From assembly GCA_016211995.1 (NCBI GenBank), contig JACRHU010000045.1, positions 1-32,064 of the forward strand: a stretch of 32,064 nucleotides of DNA, read 5' to 3'. Positions 7,592-21,640 of the stretch are shown here, piece after piece. The notes under the pieces are model-generated. The model was given only the letters and a program-made list of their open reading frames with translations, was not told the origin of the DNA and made no database searches. The DNA comes from Candidatus Pacearchaeota archaeon (GTDB lineage Archaea > Nanobdellota > Nanobdellia > Pacearchaeales > DTIR01). Each line of letters begins with the position of its first letter. The first letter of the stretch is position 1. The position numbers and the translations under genes were made by a program.

Positions 7592-8203
7592 ATGATTAAT
7601 TTAGGAGTCTTGGCTTCAGGAAAGGGAACAAATCTACAAGCAATAATTAATGCTTGTGAAAATAGAGAGATTGATGCAAGGGTTGTGGCAGTAATTTCTG
7701 ACAATAAAGATGCTTATGCTTTGGAGATAGCCAAGCAGCATAATATCCCTAGTTATTATGTAAATAAAGCAATTTTTTCATATAAACTATGTTATGAAGA
7801 GGAAATTGTGAAAAGATTAAATAAAAATAAAGTAAATTTAATTGTTTTAGCAGGATATATGAAGATAGTGGAAGACACCCTATTATCCTCTTATGAAAAT
7901 AAGATAATGAACATACATCCTTCTCTGCTTCCCTGTTTTCCAGGAAAAAATGCTATAGAGCAGGCATATAACTCAGGAGTAAAGATCACAGGAGTAACAA
8001 TTCATTTTGTGGATAAAGGAGTAGATACTGGACCGATAATACTACAATCCCCTGTTCCAATTCTTGAAAATGATTCTTTAGAATCACTCACAGAAAGAGT
8101 GCATCAAGAGGAGCATAAACTCTATAAAAAAGCAATTCAGCTATTTATTGAAGGAAGATTAAAAATTGATAAAGGAAAAGTTAGGATATTAGAAGAAAAA
8201 TGA
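7592..8203 (+). CDS. purN: phosphoribosylglycinamide formyltransferase (GART)
   Basis: LGVLASGKGTNLQAII, LAGYMKI, MNIHPSLLPCFPGKNAIEQA, GVTIHFVDKGVDTGPII. Confidence 0.93.
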   Translation: MINLGVLASGKGTNLQAIINACENREIDARVVAVISDNKDAYALEIAKQHNIPSYYVNKAIFSYKLCYEEEIVKRLNKNKVNLIVLAGYMKIVEDTLLSSYENKIMNIHPSLLPCFPGKNAIEQAYNSGVKITGVTIHFVDKGVDTGPIILQSPVPILENDSLESLTERVHQEEHKLYKKAIQLFIEGRLKIDKGKVRILEEK

Positions 8204-8685
8204 ATATAGTATTGATAGGCATGCCTTATTCAGGCAAGTCTACCTTAGGCAAGAAGCTTGCAAAAAAGCTTAGTATGAATTTTGTTGATACTGATAGGTA
8301 TATAGAAGAACTAGAGAGAATAAAACTAACTGAAATTTTCAAGGAAAGGGGTGAGCGAGGATTTAAAGAAATTGAAGAAAAAAGAATTTTAGAACTCGAG
8401 TTTGATAATTCTGTCATTGCATCTGGAGGTAGTGTTGTGCTTTCTCCAGGAATTATGGAGCATCTGAAAAAAAATGCTGTTATAATTTATTTAAAAATTA
8501 GTTTTGAAGAGCTAGAAAAAAGAATAAAAGATATAAATTCGCGGGGAATTGTTGGTTTCAGGGGAAATTTAAAAGAGGTTTTTGAGTTTCGTGCGCCTTT
8601 TTATGAGAGATACGCTGACAAAGTTGTTGAAGTAAACAAAGAAACTTTAAATTATATAGTAAATTTTATCAAAAATAAAGTTTAA
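8200..8685 (+). CDS. aroK: shikimate kinase, P-loop AroK type
   Basis: GMPYSGKSTLGKKLAKKL (Walker A), FVDTDRYIE, FKERGERGFKEIEEKRI, VIASGGSVV, RAPFYERYAD. Confidence 0.88.
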   Translation: MNIVLIGMPYSGKSTLGKKLAKKLSMNFVDTDRYIEELERIKLTEIFKERGERGFKEIEEKRILELEFDNSVIASGGSVVLSPGIMEHLKKNAVIIYLKISFEELEKRIKDINSRGIVGFRGNLKEVFEFRAPFYERYADKVVEVNKETLNYIVNFIKNKV

Positions 8686-8689
8686 ATAA

Positions 8690-8734
8690 GAAACTTTAGA
8701 TTATCTAGTTGATTTTATTAAAAAAAGAACTTAA
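8690..8734 (+). pseudogene. second copy of the aroK 3' end (ETLDYLVDFIKKRT*)
   Basis: Codon-aligned with the aroK tail ETLNYIVNFIKNKV* at 8641-8685; 36/45 nt identical by hand alignment; own stop. Confidence 0.75.
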
Positions 8735-13073: not shown

Positions 13074-13772
13074 ATGAAAAAAATAAAACTAATTGTAACA
13101 GATTTTGATGGATGTTTGGTAAAATTTGAAAATGAACCATATAACAGCAGCTGGGATGCAATGGGCCTGCTTCTTCCTGACACTAAAAAAAGACTTTGGT
13201 TTAGTGAGAGAGACAGATATATTGATTTAATTCATTCAACTGAAGAGATAGAGAGAAAGATAGAAATAGATAAAGAATGGTTTTATAGAGATTTGTCCTT
13301 GCTTGCCGGAGAAAGTGTAAATTATTTTTTGGAGAATATTTTTCCATTAAATTATACTTCTGGAGCAAAAGAATTTTTTTCTTCTGTCAAGAAAAATGGG
13401 CAAAAAATAGGAATTCTGAGCGCAGGACTTGATTTTATCATTGAAAAATCTGCAAAAGAATTGAATATGGACTTTTATATTTGTTCAGAAGCAGAGATTA
13501 AAAACAGAGTTTTGACGGGGAAAGGAAACTTTATTGTCACATTATTTAATAAAGATAGACATTTTTCTAATTTATTAGCTAATTATTCATTAAAAAAAGA
13601 AAATTCCTGTTATTTTGGGGATAATTTTAATTGTATCTCATGCATAGAGAAAGCTGGCTTAGGAATAGCAGTTAATGCAAAGACTAAAGCTGTTGAAGAT
13701 GCAGCAAAATATTCTATCAATGATTTTATGCAGGCAATTCCTTTAATTGAAGAATATAAAGGAGAAAAATGA
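13074..13772 (+). CDS. HAD-superfamily phosphatase (phosphoserine phosphatase-like)
   Basis: VTDFDGCLVKFE, GILSAGLDFIIEKSAKEL, CYFGDNFNCISCIEKAGLGIAVNA. Confidence 0.82.
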   Translation: MKKIKLIVTDFDGCLVKFENEPYNSSWDAMGLLLPDTKKRLWFSERDRYIDLIHSTEEIERKIEIDKEWFYRDLSLLAGESVNYFLENIFPLNYTSGAKEFFSSVKKNGQKIGILSAGLDFIIEKSAKELNMDFYICSEAEIKNRVLTGKGNFIVTLFNKDRHFSNLLANYSLKKENSCYFGDNFNCISCIEKAGLGIAVNAKTKAVEDAAKYSINDFMQAIPLIEEYKGEK

Positions 13773-16700
13773 GCCTTAATCAATATTTCAAGGAGATAGA
13801 GGATAAAGTTAGAGTAGCATATAGCATTGCTCAAGAAGCAAGAAATAGAGAACTGGACCCGGTTTCTATTGTTGAAATTCCACTTGCCAGAAGCCTTGCT
13901 GAGAAAGTCACTGCCCTTGTTTCTGTTAAATATCCTCAGGTAAATAATCCAGAACTTGCAAAAAGAATTCTTAGCCTAGAGAAAGAACACGGACAGCTAA
14001 ATCCTATAGTTTCTATTATTATTGCAGAGGAAATTTCAAATGAAAAATTTTGTAAGTTTAGAAGCAAACTCGAGGCAATTGATGCAGGAATTAGAATTGG
14101 TTTAGCATATACAACAATGGGTGTTGTCTCTTCGCCTCTTGAAGGGTTTACAGATTTGAAGTTAGGCAAGACTGCAAAAGGAGCCGAATATTTTAAAGTT
14201 TACTTTTCAGGACCAATAAGAAGTGCAGGAGGAACAGCAGCTGCATTTTGTGTTGTACTTGCAGATTATTTAAGAGAAAAATTTGGTTATGCAAAATATG
14301 ATGCAACAGAACAAGAAGTAAAGAGAACAGTTACAGAAGTACTAGACTATCATGAAAGAATTACAAATTTGCAATATCTCCCAAGTGAGAAAGAAGTTGA
14401 AATTATTGCGAGAAATTTACCTGTTCAAGTGACAGGTGAACCCTCTGAAGATAAAGAAGTTTCAAATTATAAAGATATAGAAAGAATTGAAACAAATTTA
14501 TTGAGAAGCGGGTTCTGTCTTGTAATAGCAGAAGGAATTGCACAAAAAGCTGCCAAGCTTATTAAAATAATCAGGGGGCTTAGAGACAAGAATTTATCTA
14601 TCTCATCATGGGATTTTTTACAAGATATTACAAAATTACAGAAAAAAGAGATTGCAGAAGCAAAGCCAAGTGCCTCTTCTACATTTATAAAAGATATTGT
14701 AGCAGGCAGGCCAATTTTTACACATCCTTCAAGACCAGGAGGTTTTAGATTGAGATATGGAAGAACAAGAACAAGCGGATATAGTGCTGTTGCAATTCAT
14801 CCTTCTACCATGATTTTATTAGAAAACTTTATTGCTATTGGTACCCAATTTAGAATGGAGAGACCAGGAAAATCTGCAGCAGTTGTTTCTTGTGATAGCA
14901 TTGAAGCTCCGCTTGTGAAATTAAATAATGGTAGTGTGATAAATCTTAAAGAGATAAGAGATACAGAAAGATTTAAACCAGAAGTTAAAGAAGTACTTTA
15001 TTTAGGAGATATACTAATAAGCTATGGAGATTTTATAAATAGGAACCATGTTTTAATGCCTGTGGGTTATACAGAAGAACAATGGGTCTCTGATTTAAAA
15101 CCTAAAACCCAGGAAAAGATAAGCCCCTCTAATATCGATATAGGACAGGTTAAAAAATTATCTCAAGAATTTAATGTTCCCTTACATCCGGCTTATATTT
15201 TTTATTGGAGCCAATTATGTGTAGATGATATTCTTCTACTACTCGAATGGCTTAAATATGCTCGCTTTGAGAATAAAATTATTCTTCCTTATGAAAGAAA
15301 ATTTGATTTGAATAAAAGGGCTTTAGAAATTTTAGGTGTTCCTCATATAGTGACTACTGAAAATGTCGTGATATCTGAAAAAGATTCATTAGCCTTAATG
15401 CTTAATCTAGGGATAGAAAAACTTAGCGAGATTGTTGAAATCTCTAAAAATTTTAGTAAACTTAAGGTTAATAATGGTCTTGATTTTATCAATAAAGTTT
15501 CAAAATTTAAGATAAAAGATAAGGCTGGAACTTTCATCGGAGCAAGAATGGGAAGACCAGAAAAAGCAAAACTTCGCAAGTTGACTGGCTCCCCAAATGT
15601 CTTATTTCCTGTTGGTGAAGCAGGAGGAAGATTAAGAAGCGTACAAGAAGCAGCAGAATCTACTGTTAAAGCAGATTTTCCAATTTATTTTTGTAATAAA
15701 TGCAATGCAGAAACTATTTATTTTATATGTGAAAATTGTGGTGAGAGAACTGGGAAAATGTATTATTGCAAGGATTGTGATCAAAAAATTCCTGAAAAGC
15801 ATTGCCATCTCCATGGAGAAAATTCTGTTGCAGAATTTACATTAAAAAGAGTTGATATGCAAAATTATTTTAACGCCGCAGTTAAGCATCTAAATTTCCA
15901 AAAAATAGAAATTCCTGAAATGATTAAAGGAGTTAAAGGAACATCATCAGGAACACATATTCCCGAAAATCTTGCTAAAGGCTTTTTAAGAGCAATGTTT
16001 AATCTTTGTGTTAATAAAGATGGCACAATAAGATATGATTGTACAGAACTGCCCATTACATATTTTAAACCTAAAGAAATTGGCACTCCGGTAGAAAAAT
16101 TAATTGAACTTGACTATATCAAAGATATTAATGGACAAAAATTAGTAAATGAAGAACAAATCTTAGAAATAAAGCCGCACGATGTTATTCTTCCTTGTTG
16201 TCCAGATAGTTTAGATGAAAATGCTGATTTTGTTTTTCAGAATATAGCTAATTTTATTGATTCTTTACTTGTAAGGTTTTATGGATTGAAACCATTTTAT
16301 GAATTAAAAAGAAAAGAAGATTTAATAGGACATTTAGTTACATGTATTGCTCCGCATAATTCTGCTTGTGTTGTTGGAAGAATAATTGGATTTAGTAAGA
16401 TTCAGGCTCTACTCGCTTCTCCATTTATGCATGCTGCTATGAGGAGGGATTGCGTTTATCCAACAACAAAATTATTTTTTTATGATGCTAAGAACAAAGA
16501 AATATTCTATGAGGGTTTAGGGGATTATGTTGAAAAGCTCATAAAAGAAAGAGCAGAAACAAAAAAAATTGATTCTTTTGGAACCCTTAAAGTAGATATA
16601 AATAAAAAAATTTATGCTTTGGGCATAGACCCATACACACATGAACTTAAAAAGAAAAAAATAAAATATTTTATCAAAGGTCCTGAAACAAAAGAATGGA

Positions 16701-18592
16701 TAAAAATTACGACAGCAACAAATCGAGAGTATATGATGACCCCATCTCATAAATTTATGTTTGTAGAGGGCAATAATTTTAGATTTAAAGAAGCTAAGAA
16801 TGCAACAGTAGGTGACCAAATTCCTGTTTTAGAAAATTTTAATTTTAAATTAGGAATAAGCAGCATTGATATAGTTGAATTGTTCAAAGAGAAGCTTACT
16901 GAGAAAGAAAAGAAGGAGATAATTGTTATTGATAATAAAAAAGAACAGAATCTTAATATTTTTTCTGGAATAGCAAATAAATCTTTTAAATTAAGACACA
17001 AATTTTCCCATCATAAAATCCCAGCAATTTTAAATATTAATGAAGACCTAATGAGACTTTTTGGGTATTATTCTGCCGAAGGTTATTCAAGAATAAATAA
17101 ATGGGTTGGACAGGTAAGCTTTAGGATTTGCAATAAAGATATGCAAACCCATATAGAAGAGATAATCAAAAGAGTTTTTGGAATTAAAGCAAGTTTAGGA
17201 GAGGATAATACAAAAATTACAATATGCAGCAAGCTTATCTACTACCTATTTAAAAGTTTAGGGATAGGGAAAGGGGCTTATGACAAAAGGAGTCCAAGAT
17301 TTATTTTTGGTTTAGATGAAAATCTTGTAAGGGAATATATTTCTGCATTTTTTGAAGGCGACGGAAGTGTTATCAAAACCTCTAAAAGAATTGTTTTTTA
17401 TTCTGTTTCGCGAGATTTGTTAGACGATATAGCATTACTTCTTTCAAAATTTCACATTATTGGAAGATATTTTAGAACAGAACCAAGGCTTCCTGGGAAA
17501 AGGGTTTTAGAAAGATATAAAGAATTAAGAAAAAAACCTAAAAAACACACATTAAATCATTTAATTTTGGGAGTTCATGATTCTTTTAAATTAAGCCAAA
17601 TTTTGCATCTCATAAACAGAGAAAGGATAGAGCAAATTAAATATCTAAGACCTGCAGAAAAGAGATATTTAGCATATGGCAGGAAACAAATTTTATTAAA
17701 AACGCAGAGCGATTATTTCATAGACTATGTCAAAAAAGTGGAGGTGATTAGAGACACTAAAAACTCATATTGTGTTGAAATAGAATGGAAGGAGGCAGAA
17801 GATAGGAATGTATTATGGGGAGAACAGATAATTAATACAAGATGCGACGGGGATGAGGCAGCAGTAATGCTCTTGCTTGATATGTTGATTAATTTCTCAA
17901 AGCAGTATCTTCCTGCACATAGGGGTGCGACGCAAGATGCTCCCCTAATCTTAAATGCAAGATTAAGAGTAGGAGAGGTAGATGATATGGTTTTTGATAT
18001 GGAAACTGTTAAAGAGTTTCCTTCTGAGTTATATGAAGCAGCGGAGAGGTTCGCATCTCCTGCCTCTATTAAAGTACCACAAGTTAAGTCTAAACTGCTT
18101 GAAGGGGATAATGCATTTGAGGATATGTTCTACACGCATGAGACTTCTGATATTAATTTAGGAGTTACGTGCAGTGCATATAAAAAATTAGCAACAATGC
18201 AAGAAAAAGTGCAAAAACAAATGTTAATCGTTGAAAAGATTCGAGCAGTTGATGCGGTAGATGTTGCCAAGCTCGTTATAGAAAGGCACCTTATAAGAGA
18301 CATAAGGGGCAATCTAAGAAAATTTTCAATGCAACAATTTAGATGTGTGAAATGCAATGAAAAATATAGAAGACCCCCACTTGCAGGGGTATGCTCTAAA
18401 TGCGGAGGAAAGATAATTTTTACGATTTCTGAGGGAGGAATAATAAAATATCTAGAACCAGCATTGCAACTTGCCACCAAATATGAAGTTCCTGGTTATA
18501 TCAGACAAAGTCTAGAGCTTACAAAGAAGCATATAGAAAGTATTTTTGGAAGAGAAACAGAAAAACAAGAGGCATTGCAAAAATGGTTCTAA
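13769..18592 (+). CDS. polC: DNA polymerase D large subunit (DP2), intein-containing
   Basis: FSGPIRSAGGTAAAFCVVLADYLR, GRTRTSGYSAVAIHP, GEAGGRLRSVQEA, CDGDEAAVMLLLDMLINFS, RGATQDAPLIL, zinc-ribbon cysteines, C-terminal PIP-box QEALQKWF. Confidence 0.96.
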   Translation: MSLNQYFKEIEDKVRVAYSIAQEARNRELDPVSIVEIPLARSLAEKVTALVSVKYPQVNNPELAKRILSLEKEHGQLNPIVSIIIAEEISNEKFCKFRSKLEAIDAGIRIGLAYTTMGVVSSPLEGFTDLKLGKTAKGAEYFKVYFSGPIRSAGGTAAAFCVVLADYLREKFGYAKYDATEQEVKRTVTEVLDYHERITNLQYLPSEKEVEIIARNLPVQVTGEPSEDKEVSNYKDIERIETNLLRSGFCLVIAEGIAQKAAKLIKIIRGLRDKNLSISSWDFLQDITKLQKKEIAEAKPSASSTFIKDIVAGRPIFTHPSRPGGFRLRYGRTRTSGYSAVAIHPSTMILLENFIAIGTQFRMERPGKSAAVVSCDSIEAPLVKLNNGSVINLKEIRDTERFKPEVKEVLYLGDILISYGDFINRNHVLMPVGYTEEQWVSDLKPKTQEKISPSNIDIGQVKKLSQEFNVPLHPAYIFYWSQLCVDDILLLLEWLKYARFENKIILPYERKFDLNKRALEILGVPHIVTTENVVISEKDSLALMLNLGIEKLSEIVEISKNFSKLKVNNGLDFINKVSKFKIKDKAGTFIGARMGRPEKAKLRKLTGSPNVLFPVGEAGGRLRSVQEAAESTVKADFPIYFCNKCNAETIYFICENCGERTGKMYYCKDCDQKIPEKHCHLHGENSVAEFTLKRVDMQNYFNAAVKHLNFQKIEIPEMIKGVKGTSSGTHIPENLAKGFLRAMFNLCVNKDGTIRYDCTELPITYFKPKEIGTPVEKLIELDYIKDINGQKLVNEEQILEIKPHDVILPCCPDSLDENADFVFQNIANFIDSLLVRFYGLKPFYELKRKEDLIGHLVTCIAPHNSACVVGRIIGFSKIQALLASPFMHAAMRRDCVYPTTKLFFYDAKNKEIFYEGLGDYVEKLIKERAETKKIDSFGTLKVDINKKIYALGIDPYTHELKKKKIKYFIKGPETKEWIKITTATNREYMMTPSHKFMFVEGNNFRFKEAKNATVGDQIPVLENFNFKLGISSIDIVELFKEKLTEKEKKEIIVIDNKKEQNLNIFSGIANKSFKLRHKFSHHKIPAILNINEDLMRLFGYYSAEGYSRINKWVGQVSFRICNKDMQTHIEEIIKRVFGIKASLGEDNTKITICSKLIYYLFKSLGIGKGAYDKRSPRFIFGLDENLVREYISAFFEGDGSVIKTSKRIVFYSVSRDLLDDIALLLSKFHIIGRYFRTEPRLPGKRVLERYKELRKKPKKHTLNHLILGVHDSFKLSQILHLINRERIEQIKYLRPAEKRYLAYGRKQILLKTQSDYFIDYVKKVEVIRDTKNSYCVEIEWKEAEDRNVLWGEQIINTRCDGDEAAVMLLLDMLINFSKQYLPAHRGATQDAPLILNARLRVGEVDDMVFDMETVKEFPSELYEAAERFASPASIKVPQVKSKLLEGDNAFEDMFYTHETSDINLGVTCSAYKKLATMQEKVQKQMLIVEKIRAVDAVDVAKLVIERHLIRDIRGNLRKFSMQQFRCVKCNEKYRRPPLAGVCSKCGGKIIFTISEGGIIKYLEPALQLATKYEVPGYIRQSLELTKKHIESIFGRETEKQEALQKWF
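16451..17836 (+). mobile_element. intein with LAGLIDADG (DOD) homing endonuclease inside DP2
   Basis: Starts CVYPTTKLFFYDAKNKEI after HAAMRRD; block B ITTATNREYMMTPSHKFMFV; LFGYYSAEG and FFEGDGSV endonuclease motifs; C-terminal SYCVEIEWKEAEDRNVLWGEQIIN followed by TRCDGDE. About 462 aa. Confidence 0.9.
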
Positions 18593-18739
18593 ATATATTT
18601 GAGAAACAGAAAAACAAGAGGCATTGCAAAAATGGTTCTAAATATATTTGAGAAACAGAAAAACAAGAGGCATTGCAAAAATGGTTCTAAATATATTTGA
18701 GAAACAGAAAAACAAGAAGCTCTTCAAAAATGGTTTTAG
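18552..18739 (+). repeat. 49-bp tandem repeat, three identical copies plus one diverged 41-bp copy, each encoding the DP2 C-terminal PIP-box tail and a stop
   Basis: Unit gagaaacagaaaaacaagaggcattgcaaaaatggttctaaatatattt at 18552, 18601 and 18650; variant gagaaacagaaaaacaagaagctcttcaaaaatggttttag at 18699. Confidence 0.97.
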
Positions 18740-18782: not shown

Positions 18783-21590
18783 ATGCAAGAAAGAGGCCAG
18801 GTTTCATTTTATATTGTATTATTCTTTTTTTTAGTTCTCCTAGCTATTGGTGCAATTATTTTTTTCTCAAAGCAGAATGTAGAAAAATTTGAAATTATTT
18901 CAATAGATAAAAATAAAGTTTATATCAAGAATATAGGAAAAATTTCCCTTCAAGATATAACTTTCTTTTCAGAAGAGGAAAATATAGGATATCTAGGGCC
19001 TTCGTCAGTAGAGCCGGGAGAGATATCGACTTTTAATCTTTATTCTTCTCAATATTCCAGAAAAATCAATATTACAATATCTACCTCTACACAATCAGAA
19101 ATTAGAGAAGTATATGTCTATTTTAAGAATAGAACAGTTTCTTCTACGAGCAATTTGACTAATTTTACCAGTAATCAGACAAATACAAATAAGACAAGCC
19201 CAATATGCATAGCTCATGAAGAAATCTGTGATAATATAGATAATGATTGTGATACTCAAATTGATGAAGGTTGCAATTGTATTGATGGAGCAATACAGTT
19301 GTGTGGGAGTAATGTTGGAGACTGTAGGTATGGTAGTCAGACTTGTTCAAATGGTCAGTGGCAAGAGTGTACGGGCAATATTGAGCCTACAACAGAAATC
19401 TGTGATGGAAATGATAATAATTGTGACGGTAGTACTGATGAAGGATGCTCTTGTATAACCGGTCAAAATATAACTTGTGGAATTAATGTTGGTAATTGCA
19501 AATCCGGAATTCAAAGCTGTGTAGATGGTCAATGGGATAGTTGTACAGGCAATATTCAACCAATAACAGAGATATGTGGTAATGGTCTTGATGAAAATTG
19601 TGATGGTTCTGATCTTCCTTGCCCTGAAAAAATTTATGATGTTATTGTTGTTGGTGGCTCATCAAGTGGAGTTGCAGCTGCAATTCAGTCAGCAAGGCTT
19701 GGTGCAAAAACAGTATTAATTGAAGAGACAGATTGGCTTGGTGGAATGTATTCTGCAGCAGGAGTTTCTGGATTTGATGGAAATCCTTCAGTAGGACCAG
19801 ACCCCATAACTGGAAGCGGATGGGTTGGACACACTTCAGCAATGACCACCGGAATATTCAAAGAAGTTGTTGATAAAATAAGAGACTATTATAAAAACAA
19901 GGGCCTCTCAAATTGGAGTAATCCAGGTAATTGTAGTGTTTCTTATATGTGCTTTGAACCACATGTTGCAGATCAAGTACTTAAGCAAATGGTTTTATCC
20001 ACAAAAAATTTAGATATTTTTTATAAAACAGAAGTCATAACTGTTTTAAAAAATGAAAGCACAGTACTTGGAGTTAAAACAAAAGATATAAATGGAATTC
20101 AAAATACATTCAAAGCAGCTGTAACAATTGATGCGACAGAATATGGTGACATTATTGGTCTTTCAGGAGCCAAATATAAATTAGGGAGGGAATCAAGAGC
20201 AGAAACAAATGAACCCCACGCACCACAGACAACAGATTTATGCACTAATCCTTATACTTTTGTTCTTATTCTAAAAGATTATAGAGTAAATAAAACAATA
20301 AGCAAACCAGCAGATTATGTAGCATCGAGGTATGAATGTAGCATTAAGCATCCTGGCTGTCCAAATGCAACTTATTCGTGGGACGAATTTGTAAGATATT
20401 TAAGATTAACTCCAAATAAAATTGCAATAAACTGGCCGGCGCATGTTTATGGAAATGATTTTTTAGGTAGCAATATAATAACTGTTTCAAAAGAGCAGAG
20501 AAAAAAAGAGTTTGAGAAATCAAAAAATTATTCACTAGGGTTTTTGTATTATATCCAAACTGTTTTAGGAAAAAATACCTGGGGCATTGCAGACGATGAA
20601 TATAGTACTGCTGACAAATTGCCTTTAATTCCATATATTAGGGAGAGCAGAAGAATAGTCGGATTAATAAAAATTAAAGAGCAGGATATTTCGGCATCTC
20701 TCTCTTCTGGACCAAGAGCCCTATTAAGAAACGATTCAATTGCAATAGGGGATTATCCAATAGATCTTCATAAATGTTCTATATCTGATACAGGAACAGG
20801 TATTCTTACATGGCCCTTCCAAATACCTTATGGTTCGCTTATTCCTTTAGATATGGATGGGTTAATTGCAGCTGAAAAAAGTATTTCGCAAACACATATA
20901 GCATCAGGAGCAACAAGATTACAACCAGTTGTCACATTAATAGGCCAGGCAGCTGGTGCAGCAGCTGCTTTATCAGCACAACAAAATGTGCAACCAAGAG
21001 ATTTAAATGTACGAGAAATTCAAGAAAAACTTCTTGACTCAGGAGATGCGCTTTATTATTATGCTGATATTTATCCTTCTAATCCTTATTTTAAAGCAAT
21101 TCAAACTTTAGCATTAGACGGAATAATTATCGGAGAAGCAGGCACATATAATTTTAATTCACTTAACAATGTTTCAAGAAGTGTTCTCGCGATATTAATA
21201 GCAAGGGCATTCAAATTCCAGAATAATTTAACAAAGAATAGTTTTATTGATGTTCCTTTAACTTACAGAACATATAATGAAATAGAAGCTTTATATGGTC
21301 GGAATATAACCTCTGGTTGTATTTTAAATTCAACTGGTAGATATTATTGTCCTGAAAATAATGCAACGAGGATGGAGGCAGTTATTTTTATAGTCAAAGC
21401 AATGAATCTTAATTTAATTAATCCATCTAATCCTTCATTCTCAGATGTTCCATCATCATATTCTGCTTACCAGTATATAGAAACCGCACTTGCAAATGGA
21501 ATTATAACCAAAACAGAAAAATTTAGACCTGAAGATCCTATTAAAATGATAGAATTGGCTGCGATTATTTATAATGCTCTATACTCTTAG
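18783..21590 (+). CDS. secreted/surface FAD-dependent oxidoreductase with MopE-like Cys/Asp-rich repeats and C-terminal SLH repeats
   Basis: N-terminal RGQVSFYIVLFFFLVLLAIGAIIFF; repeats EICDNIDNDCDTQIDEGC and EICDGNDNNCDGSTDEGC; FAD fold YDVIVVGGSSSGVAAAIQSARLGAKTVLIEETDWLGGM; SLH-like FSDVPSSYSAYQYIETALANGIIT. Confidence 0.87.
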   Translation: MQERGQVSFYIVLFFFLVLLAIGAIIFFSKQNVEKFEIISIDKNKVYIKNIGKISLQDITFFSEEENIGYLGPSSVEPGEISTFNLYSSQYSRKINITISTSTQSEIREVYVYFKNRTVSSTSNLTNFTSNQTNTNKTSPICIAHEEICDNIDNDCDTQIDEGCNCIDGAIQLCGSNVGDCRYGSQTCSNGQWQECTGNIEPTTEICDGNDNNCDGSTDEGCSCITGQNITCGINVGNCKSGIQSCVDGQWDSCTGNIQPITEICGNGLDENCDGSDLPCPEKIYDVIVVGGSSSGVAAAIQSARLGAKTVLIEETDWLGGMYSAAGVSGFDGNPSVGPDPITGSGWVGHTSAMTTGIFKEVVDKIRDYYKNKGLSNWSNPGNCSVSYMCFEPHVADQVLKQMVLSTKNLDIFYKTEVITVLKNESTVLGVKTKDINGIQNTFKAAVTIDATEYGDIIGLSGAKYKLGRESRAETNEPHAPQTTDLCTNPYTFVLILKDYRVNKTISKPADYVASRYECSIKHPGCPNATYSWDEFVRYLRLTPNKIAINWPAHVYGNDFLGSNIITVSKEQRKKEFEKSKNYSLGFLYYIQTVLGKNTWGIADDEYSTADKLPLIPYIRESRRIVGLIKIKEQDISASLSSGPRALLRNDSIAIGDYPIDLHKCSISDTGTGILTWPFQIPYGSLIPLDMDGLIAAEKSISQTHIASGATRLQPVVTLIGQAAGAAAALSAQQNVQPRDLNVREIQEKLLDSGDALYYYADIYPSNPYFKAIQTLALDGIIIGEAGTYNFNSLNNVSRSVLAILIARAFKFQNNLTKNSFIDVPLTYRTYNEIEALYGRNITSGCILNSTGRYYCPENNATRMEAVIFIVKAMNLNLINPSNPSFSDVPSSYSAYQYIETALANGIITKTEKFRPEDPIKMIELAAIIYNALYS

Positions 21591-21601
21591 ATATTAATGC
21601 A

Positions 21602-21640
21602 GAATTGGCTGTGATTATTTATAATGCATTATACCTTTAA
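21602..21640 (+). pseudogene. second copy of the FAD/SLH gene 3' end (ELAVIIYNALYL*)
   Basis: Codon-aligned with ELAAIIYNALYS* at 21552-21590; 33/39 nt identical by hand alignment; own stop. Confidence 0.8.

Follow-up and report, generated by a model that had tools for sequence, protein, structure and literature searches.

Recoded spare copies of gene ends beside the DNA polymerase D large-subunit gene and other genes of a Pacearchaeota genome

The gene for the large subunit of archaeal DNA polymerase D (DP2) in the DNA analysed here is followed by further copies of its own last codons, which raises the question of how one gene end came to be present four times, and why the last of these copies is spelled differently from the other three. 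The window (32,064 nucleotides) is the entire contig C21 of an 86-contig draft genome (G000; 924,676 bp), and the relevant features are the following, all on the forward strand.

13769..18592, + strand: DP2, with Pfam PolC_DP2 N, central and catalytic domains, intein splicing and LAGLIDADG domains
18552..18600, + strand: copy 1, the last 41 bp of DP2 including the TAA stop, plus the 8-bp spacer atatattt (by sequence comparison)
18601..18649, + strand: copy 2, same as copy 1, phase +1 (by sequence comparison)
18650..18698, + strand: copy 3, same as copy 1, phase +2 (by sequence comparison)
18699..18739, + strand: copy 4, 41 bp, differing by six synonymous changes, in phase with the DP2 codons, no atatattt on its 3' side

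The DP2 reading frame (1607 aa, with the C-terminus ETEKQEALQKWF*) contains an in-frame intein at approximately residues 950-1339, which carries LAGLIDADG and splicing domains; DP2 frames of about 1600 aa are also present in several relatives. Its natural C-terminus, EKQEALQKWF*, is PIP-box-like, and a comparison of DP2 tails revealed that a C-terminus of the KQxxLxKWF type, which we take to resemble a PIP motif, is kept in the DP2 of relatives; judged from this comparison, the tail peptide is a conserved DP2 terminus. The sampled relatives of G000 are Pacearchaeota, Woesearchaeota or Nanoarchaeota by name, its genus being represented by one genome.

In the array, three identical units of 49 bp precede a fourth copy of 41 bp, whose six nucleotide changes leave both peptide and stop unchanged, precisely as a preliminary description of this DNA had reported. 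Four tail matches were counted in the array against none in 100 shuffles, while six random substitutions were all synonymous in 0 of 200,000 simulated sets. The same description erred in placing copy 1 alone in the DP2 frame: copy 4 begins 147 bp (3 x 49) past copy 1 and is therefore also in DP2 codon phase, with the TAA of copy 1 and a TGA created at the junction of copies 3 and 4 lying ahead of it. Read-through or dual-tail use of the copies was considered and ruled out, the frames being inconsistent. Copy 4 had been proposed to be an older or foreign DP2 terminus displaced by copies 1-3, and it does behave like a DP2 terminus that evolved on its own, given that every one of its differences is synonymous and that relatives keep the tail; a DP2-specific event was not supported, as many unrelated genes of G000 are similarly affected. 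The DP2 tail of a genome of the same family (G001) is spelled nearer to copy 1 (GAG GCA TTG) than to copy 4; however, a protein identity of approximately 72% makes synonymous sites poorly informative about polarity.

In approximately 200 kb of G000, a nucleotide criterion (ungapped score of at least 16) identified tandem copies of the 3' end at no fewer than 10 of 180 genes, one of these being a repeat of different look (see below), and this number rises to about 14-16 of 180 when weaker, codon-supported cases are counted. Short extra copies of a gene's own ends were identified for approximately 6-8% of the readable genes. The same structures were recovered at none of 360 ends when downstream regions were swapped between genes, at 1 of 387 sites in gene interiors and at none of 401 genes of G015, a genome from the same order with a complete chromosome, and a second, independent scan by peptide gave an agreeing result. 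The copies recur with a period of 39-57 bp (mode 49-50; locus L296 left out, and L295 being a multiple of 39), which in most cases is not a multiple of three. Furthermore, although about 90% of the G000 sequence is coding, the tandem near-repeats that it contains with a period of 36-57 are located at gene ends or close to them rather than in gene interiors, whereas those of G015 lie mostly inside ORFs. Identical pairs (L280, L293) and multi-copy arrays (DP2 in the window, L295) occur, and fewer 5' ends are copied upstream and recoded, including FtsY-like and GpsA-like starts (L292). The repeat of different look is a GC-rich tandem repeat of about 170 bp (L296:2404-2800, on contig C19), unlike the AT-rich gene-end copies.

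The window itself holds three cases, at the gene ends 8685, 18592 and 21590; the first and the last are diverged copies that the preliminary description did not contain.

8688..8724, + strand: diverged displaced 3' end of a shikimate-kinase-like gene (8200-8685), ETLDYLVDFIKK versus ETLNYIVNFIKN, period 49
21611..21640, + strand: diverged displaced 3' end of an FAD oxidoreductase/SLH gene (18783-21590), VIIYNALYL* versus AIIYNALYS*, period 50

In the latter case the similarity runs on for approximately 10-16 bp to the left. Specificity for PIP boxes or DP2 was initially favoured because a pattern search for PIP tails had revealed close pairs in 8 genomes, and was abandoned when unrelated genes proved to be affected likewise. 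The array is special neither to DP2 nor to PIP boxes, because many unrelated G000 genes show the same structure, and it appears to be one instance of a process acting across the genome. The preliminary description had considered that the array might be a generic repeat unrelated to DP2: the kind of event is indeed generic, but each instance copies the local gene's own end.

Both copies bear the mark of coding constraint. Among 20 pairs, third codon positions account for 55 of 80 mismatches, and the changed codons comprise 54 synonymous and 16 nonsynonymous ones, against 57 nonsynonymous expected under neutrality, with the proviso that many of these pairs were picked by peptide similarity, which biases toward a synonymous result. 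Pairs picked by nucleotide identity alone gave 19 synonymous and 7 nonsynonymous changes, where 21 nonsynonymous ones were expected. All differences are synonymous at DP2 (6/6), at locus L280 (5/5) and in two other genomes, G115 (7/7) and G197 (5/5). Since the mismatches are mainly at third positions and mostly synonymous, the copies have evolved separately as functional gene ends. A simple tandem repeat would present near-identical copies placed regardless of coding constraint; what was found instead is restriction to gene ends and a synonymous bias.

We consider that there is about an even chance that these copies arose in G000 by the tandem joining of homeologous gene-end fragments of approximately 50 bp beside resident ends, with subsequent slippage at DP2. 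Fragments that match a gene end but stem from a diverged, presumably foreign version of the gene would enter the genome, where illegitimate or short-patch recombination would place them in tandem next to the resident end. A selection filter would then allow insertions to persist at gene boundaries only, because the resident gene remains complete there, and 3' ends would be favoured because 5' events would part a gene from its promoter. At DP2, slippage or unequal exchange may have converted a pair into three identical units and one diverged unit, and slippage may likewise have produced the several near-identical units of L295, where the last copy is diverged. Counting against this proposal, nearly all displaced fragments are only about 30-50 bp long, though random insertion should leave longer ones too. 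No donor sequence was found, and viral contigs contained no element matching the tail patterns; the idea that a virus or plasmid carried the tail was rejected, since the only matches in viral contigs were one short ORF and what appear to be C-termini of viral genes.

Alternatively, a local tandem duplication of approximately 50 bp could have occurred at gene ends, both copies then diverging in place under coding constraint, for example if repeated deletion of the upstream unit alternated the copy in use. The identical pairs and multi-copy arrays demonstrate that local amplification occurs; however, a dead copy should gain nonsynonymous changes, which are absent from the four wholly synonymous cases given above, and periods that are mostly not multiples of three make use by read-through generally impossible, for which reasons we regard this explanation as unlikely.

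Such tails were traced beyond G000, into other genera, through DP2 3' ends and subsequently through a degenerate tail pattern, applied to 200 genomes of the order; a reversed-pattern control was near zero. Close tail pairs were identified at DP2 in G000, G115, G080, G064 and G076, at a gene that we take from its sequence to be FEN1 in G025 and G170, and at another gene in G197, while a class-wide PIP search yielded no further close pairs among the matches listed. Recoded tails were also observed at non-PIP genes in a control scan of other genes. In G115, two KQESIQKWF* copies differ by seven nucleotide changes, all synonymous, including TCT to AGC. In genomes other than G000 the copies lie further apart (62-944 bp) and in some cases enclose a VapBC-type pair, and a single mechanism may therefore not explain all cases.

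Pairs of genes which, from their sequence, are presumably VapBC-like toxin-antitoxin pairs lie exactly between recoded 3'-end copies at DP2 (G080, L238:5098-6071), at FEN1 (G025, L234) and at a third gene, ending in KQTRLSRWF* (G197, L228), and span 0.7-0.9 kb. Strong hairpins separate the DP2 tails of G076 (L235) and G115 (L237), with DNA fold z values of -7.8 and -5.4, respectively; in G076 one hairpin arm is the repeated DP2 sequence itself. A hairpin core, TCCAAGCGTGGC or a close variant, with differing but complementary flanks, occurs in several genera (L236:7537-7572 in G064, L233 in G170, L106:1103 and L133), in two cases between duplicated tails and in one next to an apparent tRNA gene. 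This core was discarded as an explanation, as it occurs elsewhere than between the tails of G064 and G170 and is unneeded for the window. In G170 (L233:~1100-1450), a gene ending in TAVKKEKRL* is followed by two more recoded tail copies, with a hairpin-like GTGCC..GGCA(C/T) stretch after each of the first two copies. Two contigs of G026 (C7 and C44; L229 and L230) carry 3' parts of DP2 that are nearly identical but continue into different sequence downstream, a purF-like gene lying directly 3' of one DP2 stop, which suggests an insertion polymorphism between strains.

The VapBC-like pairs flanked by recoded tails would suit a site-specific or homing-type element that integrated at the 3' end with a recoded, restoring tail, pushed the original tail downstream and was later lost, and the same anatomy is known from a fungal mitochondrial precedent (PMC3630166). 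Such an element is nevertheless improbable as the source of the copies: those in the window are parted by 8 bp only, many unrelated genes with unrelated tails and also 5' ends are affected, and neither a recombinase in any interval between copies nor an element in viral contigs was detected. Integrases at the site were also dismissed, as those found lie elsewhere (that of G000 on contig C86).

It was also considered whether the copies are an artefact of assembly or strain mixing, in which contig ends of two co-occurring strains were joined unmerged. G000 is a metagenome assembly, the differences between copies are such as alleles of two lineages would show, and a low-k junction carried upward is conceivable. 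However, G000 contigs, two short ones of which read as N throughout, share overlaps of exactly 141 bp and lack scaffold gaps, which suggests de Bruijn contigs of k=141 without scaffolding; a single k-mer can hold a structure of about 100 bp, and since the 166-bp periodic run does not reach the length of k plus one period (141+49), copy number is determinable. Additionally, junctions almost never fall inside genes despite approximately 90% coding density, where artefacts would be placed at scaffold joins regardless of genes, and the similar case of G115 sits on a contig whose name marks it as k141; we therefore consider an artefact quite improbable. That the extra tails are functional, as regulatory RNA, terminator or reserve C-termini, is very improbable: synonymous-only change does imply coding constraint at some time and hairpins lie between the copies of G115 and G076, but copies occur in all frames and behind stops, fold analysis found no stable structure in the DP2 spacer of the window, and Rfam gave no match near the array.

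Returning to the joining of homeologous fragments, we tentatively extend it, with rather less than even confidence, to some DPANN archaea in general, which may frequently capture ~50-bp pieces of diverged homologues and insert them in tandem at gene termini, an undescribed process that would leave about 6-8% of gene ends with a recoded spare and, in related genera, would produce junctions that can carry toxin-antitoxin pairs. If so, the gene ends of some archaea with tiny genomes would record many recent encounters with the DNA of related lineages, and would offer a directly readable measure of recombination for rarely cultured organisms as well as a test case for the entry of short foreign DNA into genomes. 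Capture of ~50-bp pieces at such a scale was not found described for cellular genomes in the literature searched. Repeated C-termini of this kind should accordingly not be taken as regulatory or PCNA-specific features.

Several known systems resemble these gene ends in part. Copies 1-3 at DP2 are an ordinary short tandem array of the minisatellite type, whereas synonymous recoding and a position at gene ends set copy 4 and most of the other pairs apart. Illegitimate or homology-facilitated recombination joins short foreign DNA at or near homologous sites, although the frequency, gene-end position and ~50-bp period seen in G000 are unusual for it. Integrative elements use the 3' ends of protein genes as attB and restore the terminus, as phage 21 and e14 do at icd, and similarly leave a recoded 3' end with a second copy downstream; in G000, however, there is no element or integrase between the copies, 5' ends are involved too, and the tails of the affected genes are unrelated instead of sharing one conserved core per element family. 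Literature searches for precedents returned the fungal mitochondrial case only, which is the nearest counterpart in anatomy: according to PMC3630166, mitochondria of Glomus, and of Allomyces as cited there, contain duplicated, displaced C-termini of atp6, atp9, cox2 and nad3. In the fungi a homing-endonuclease ORF between the termini drives mobility, whereas the archaeal copies are parted by the 8-bp spacer in the window and, elsewhere, by no more than hairpins or VapBC-like pairs, without an endonuclease; the fungal tails measure approximately 50-280 bp, against 30-50 bp for the archaeal ones with an interval of often 3-30 bp, and in the archaeal case, unlike the fungal one, many genes of one genome are affected. 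Common to both, G000 included, is a functional C-terminus followed by a second, diverged one downstream, with strong nucleotide divergence, little amino-acid change and one terminus inferred to be foreign.
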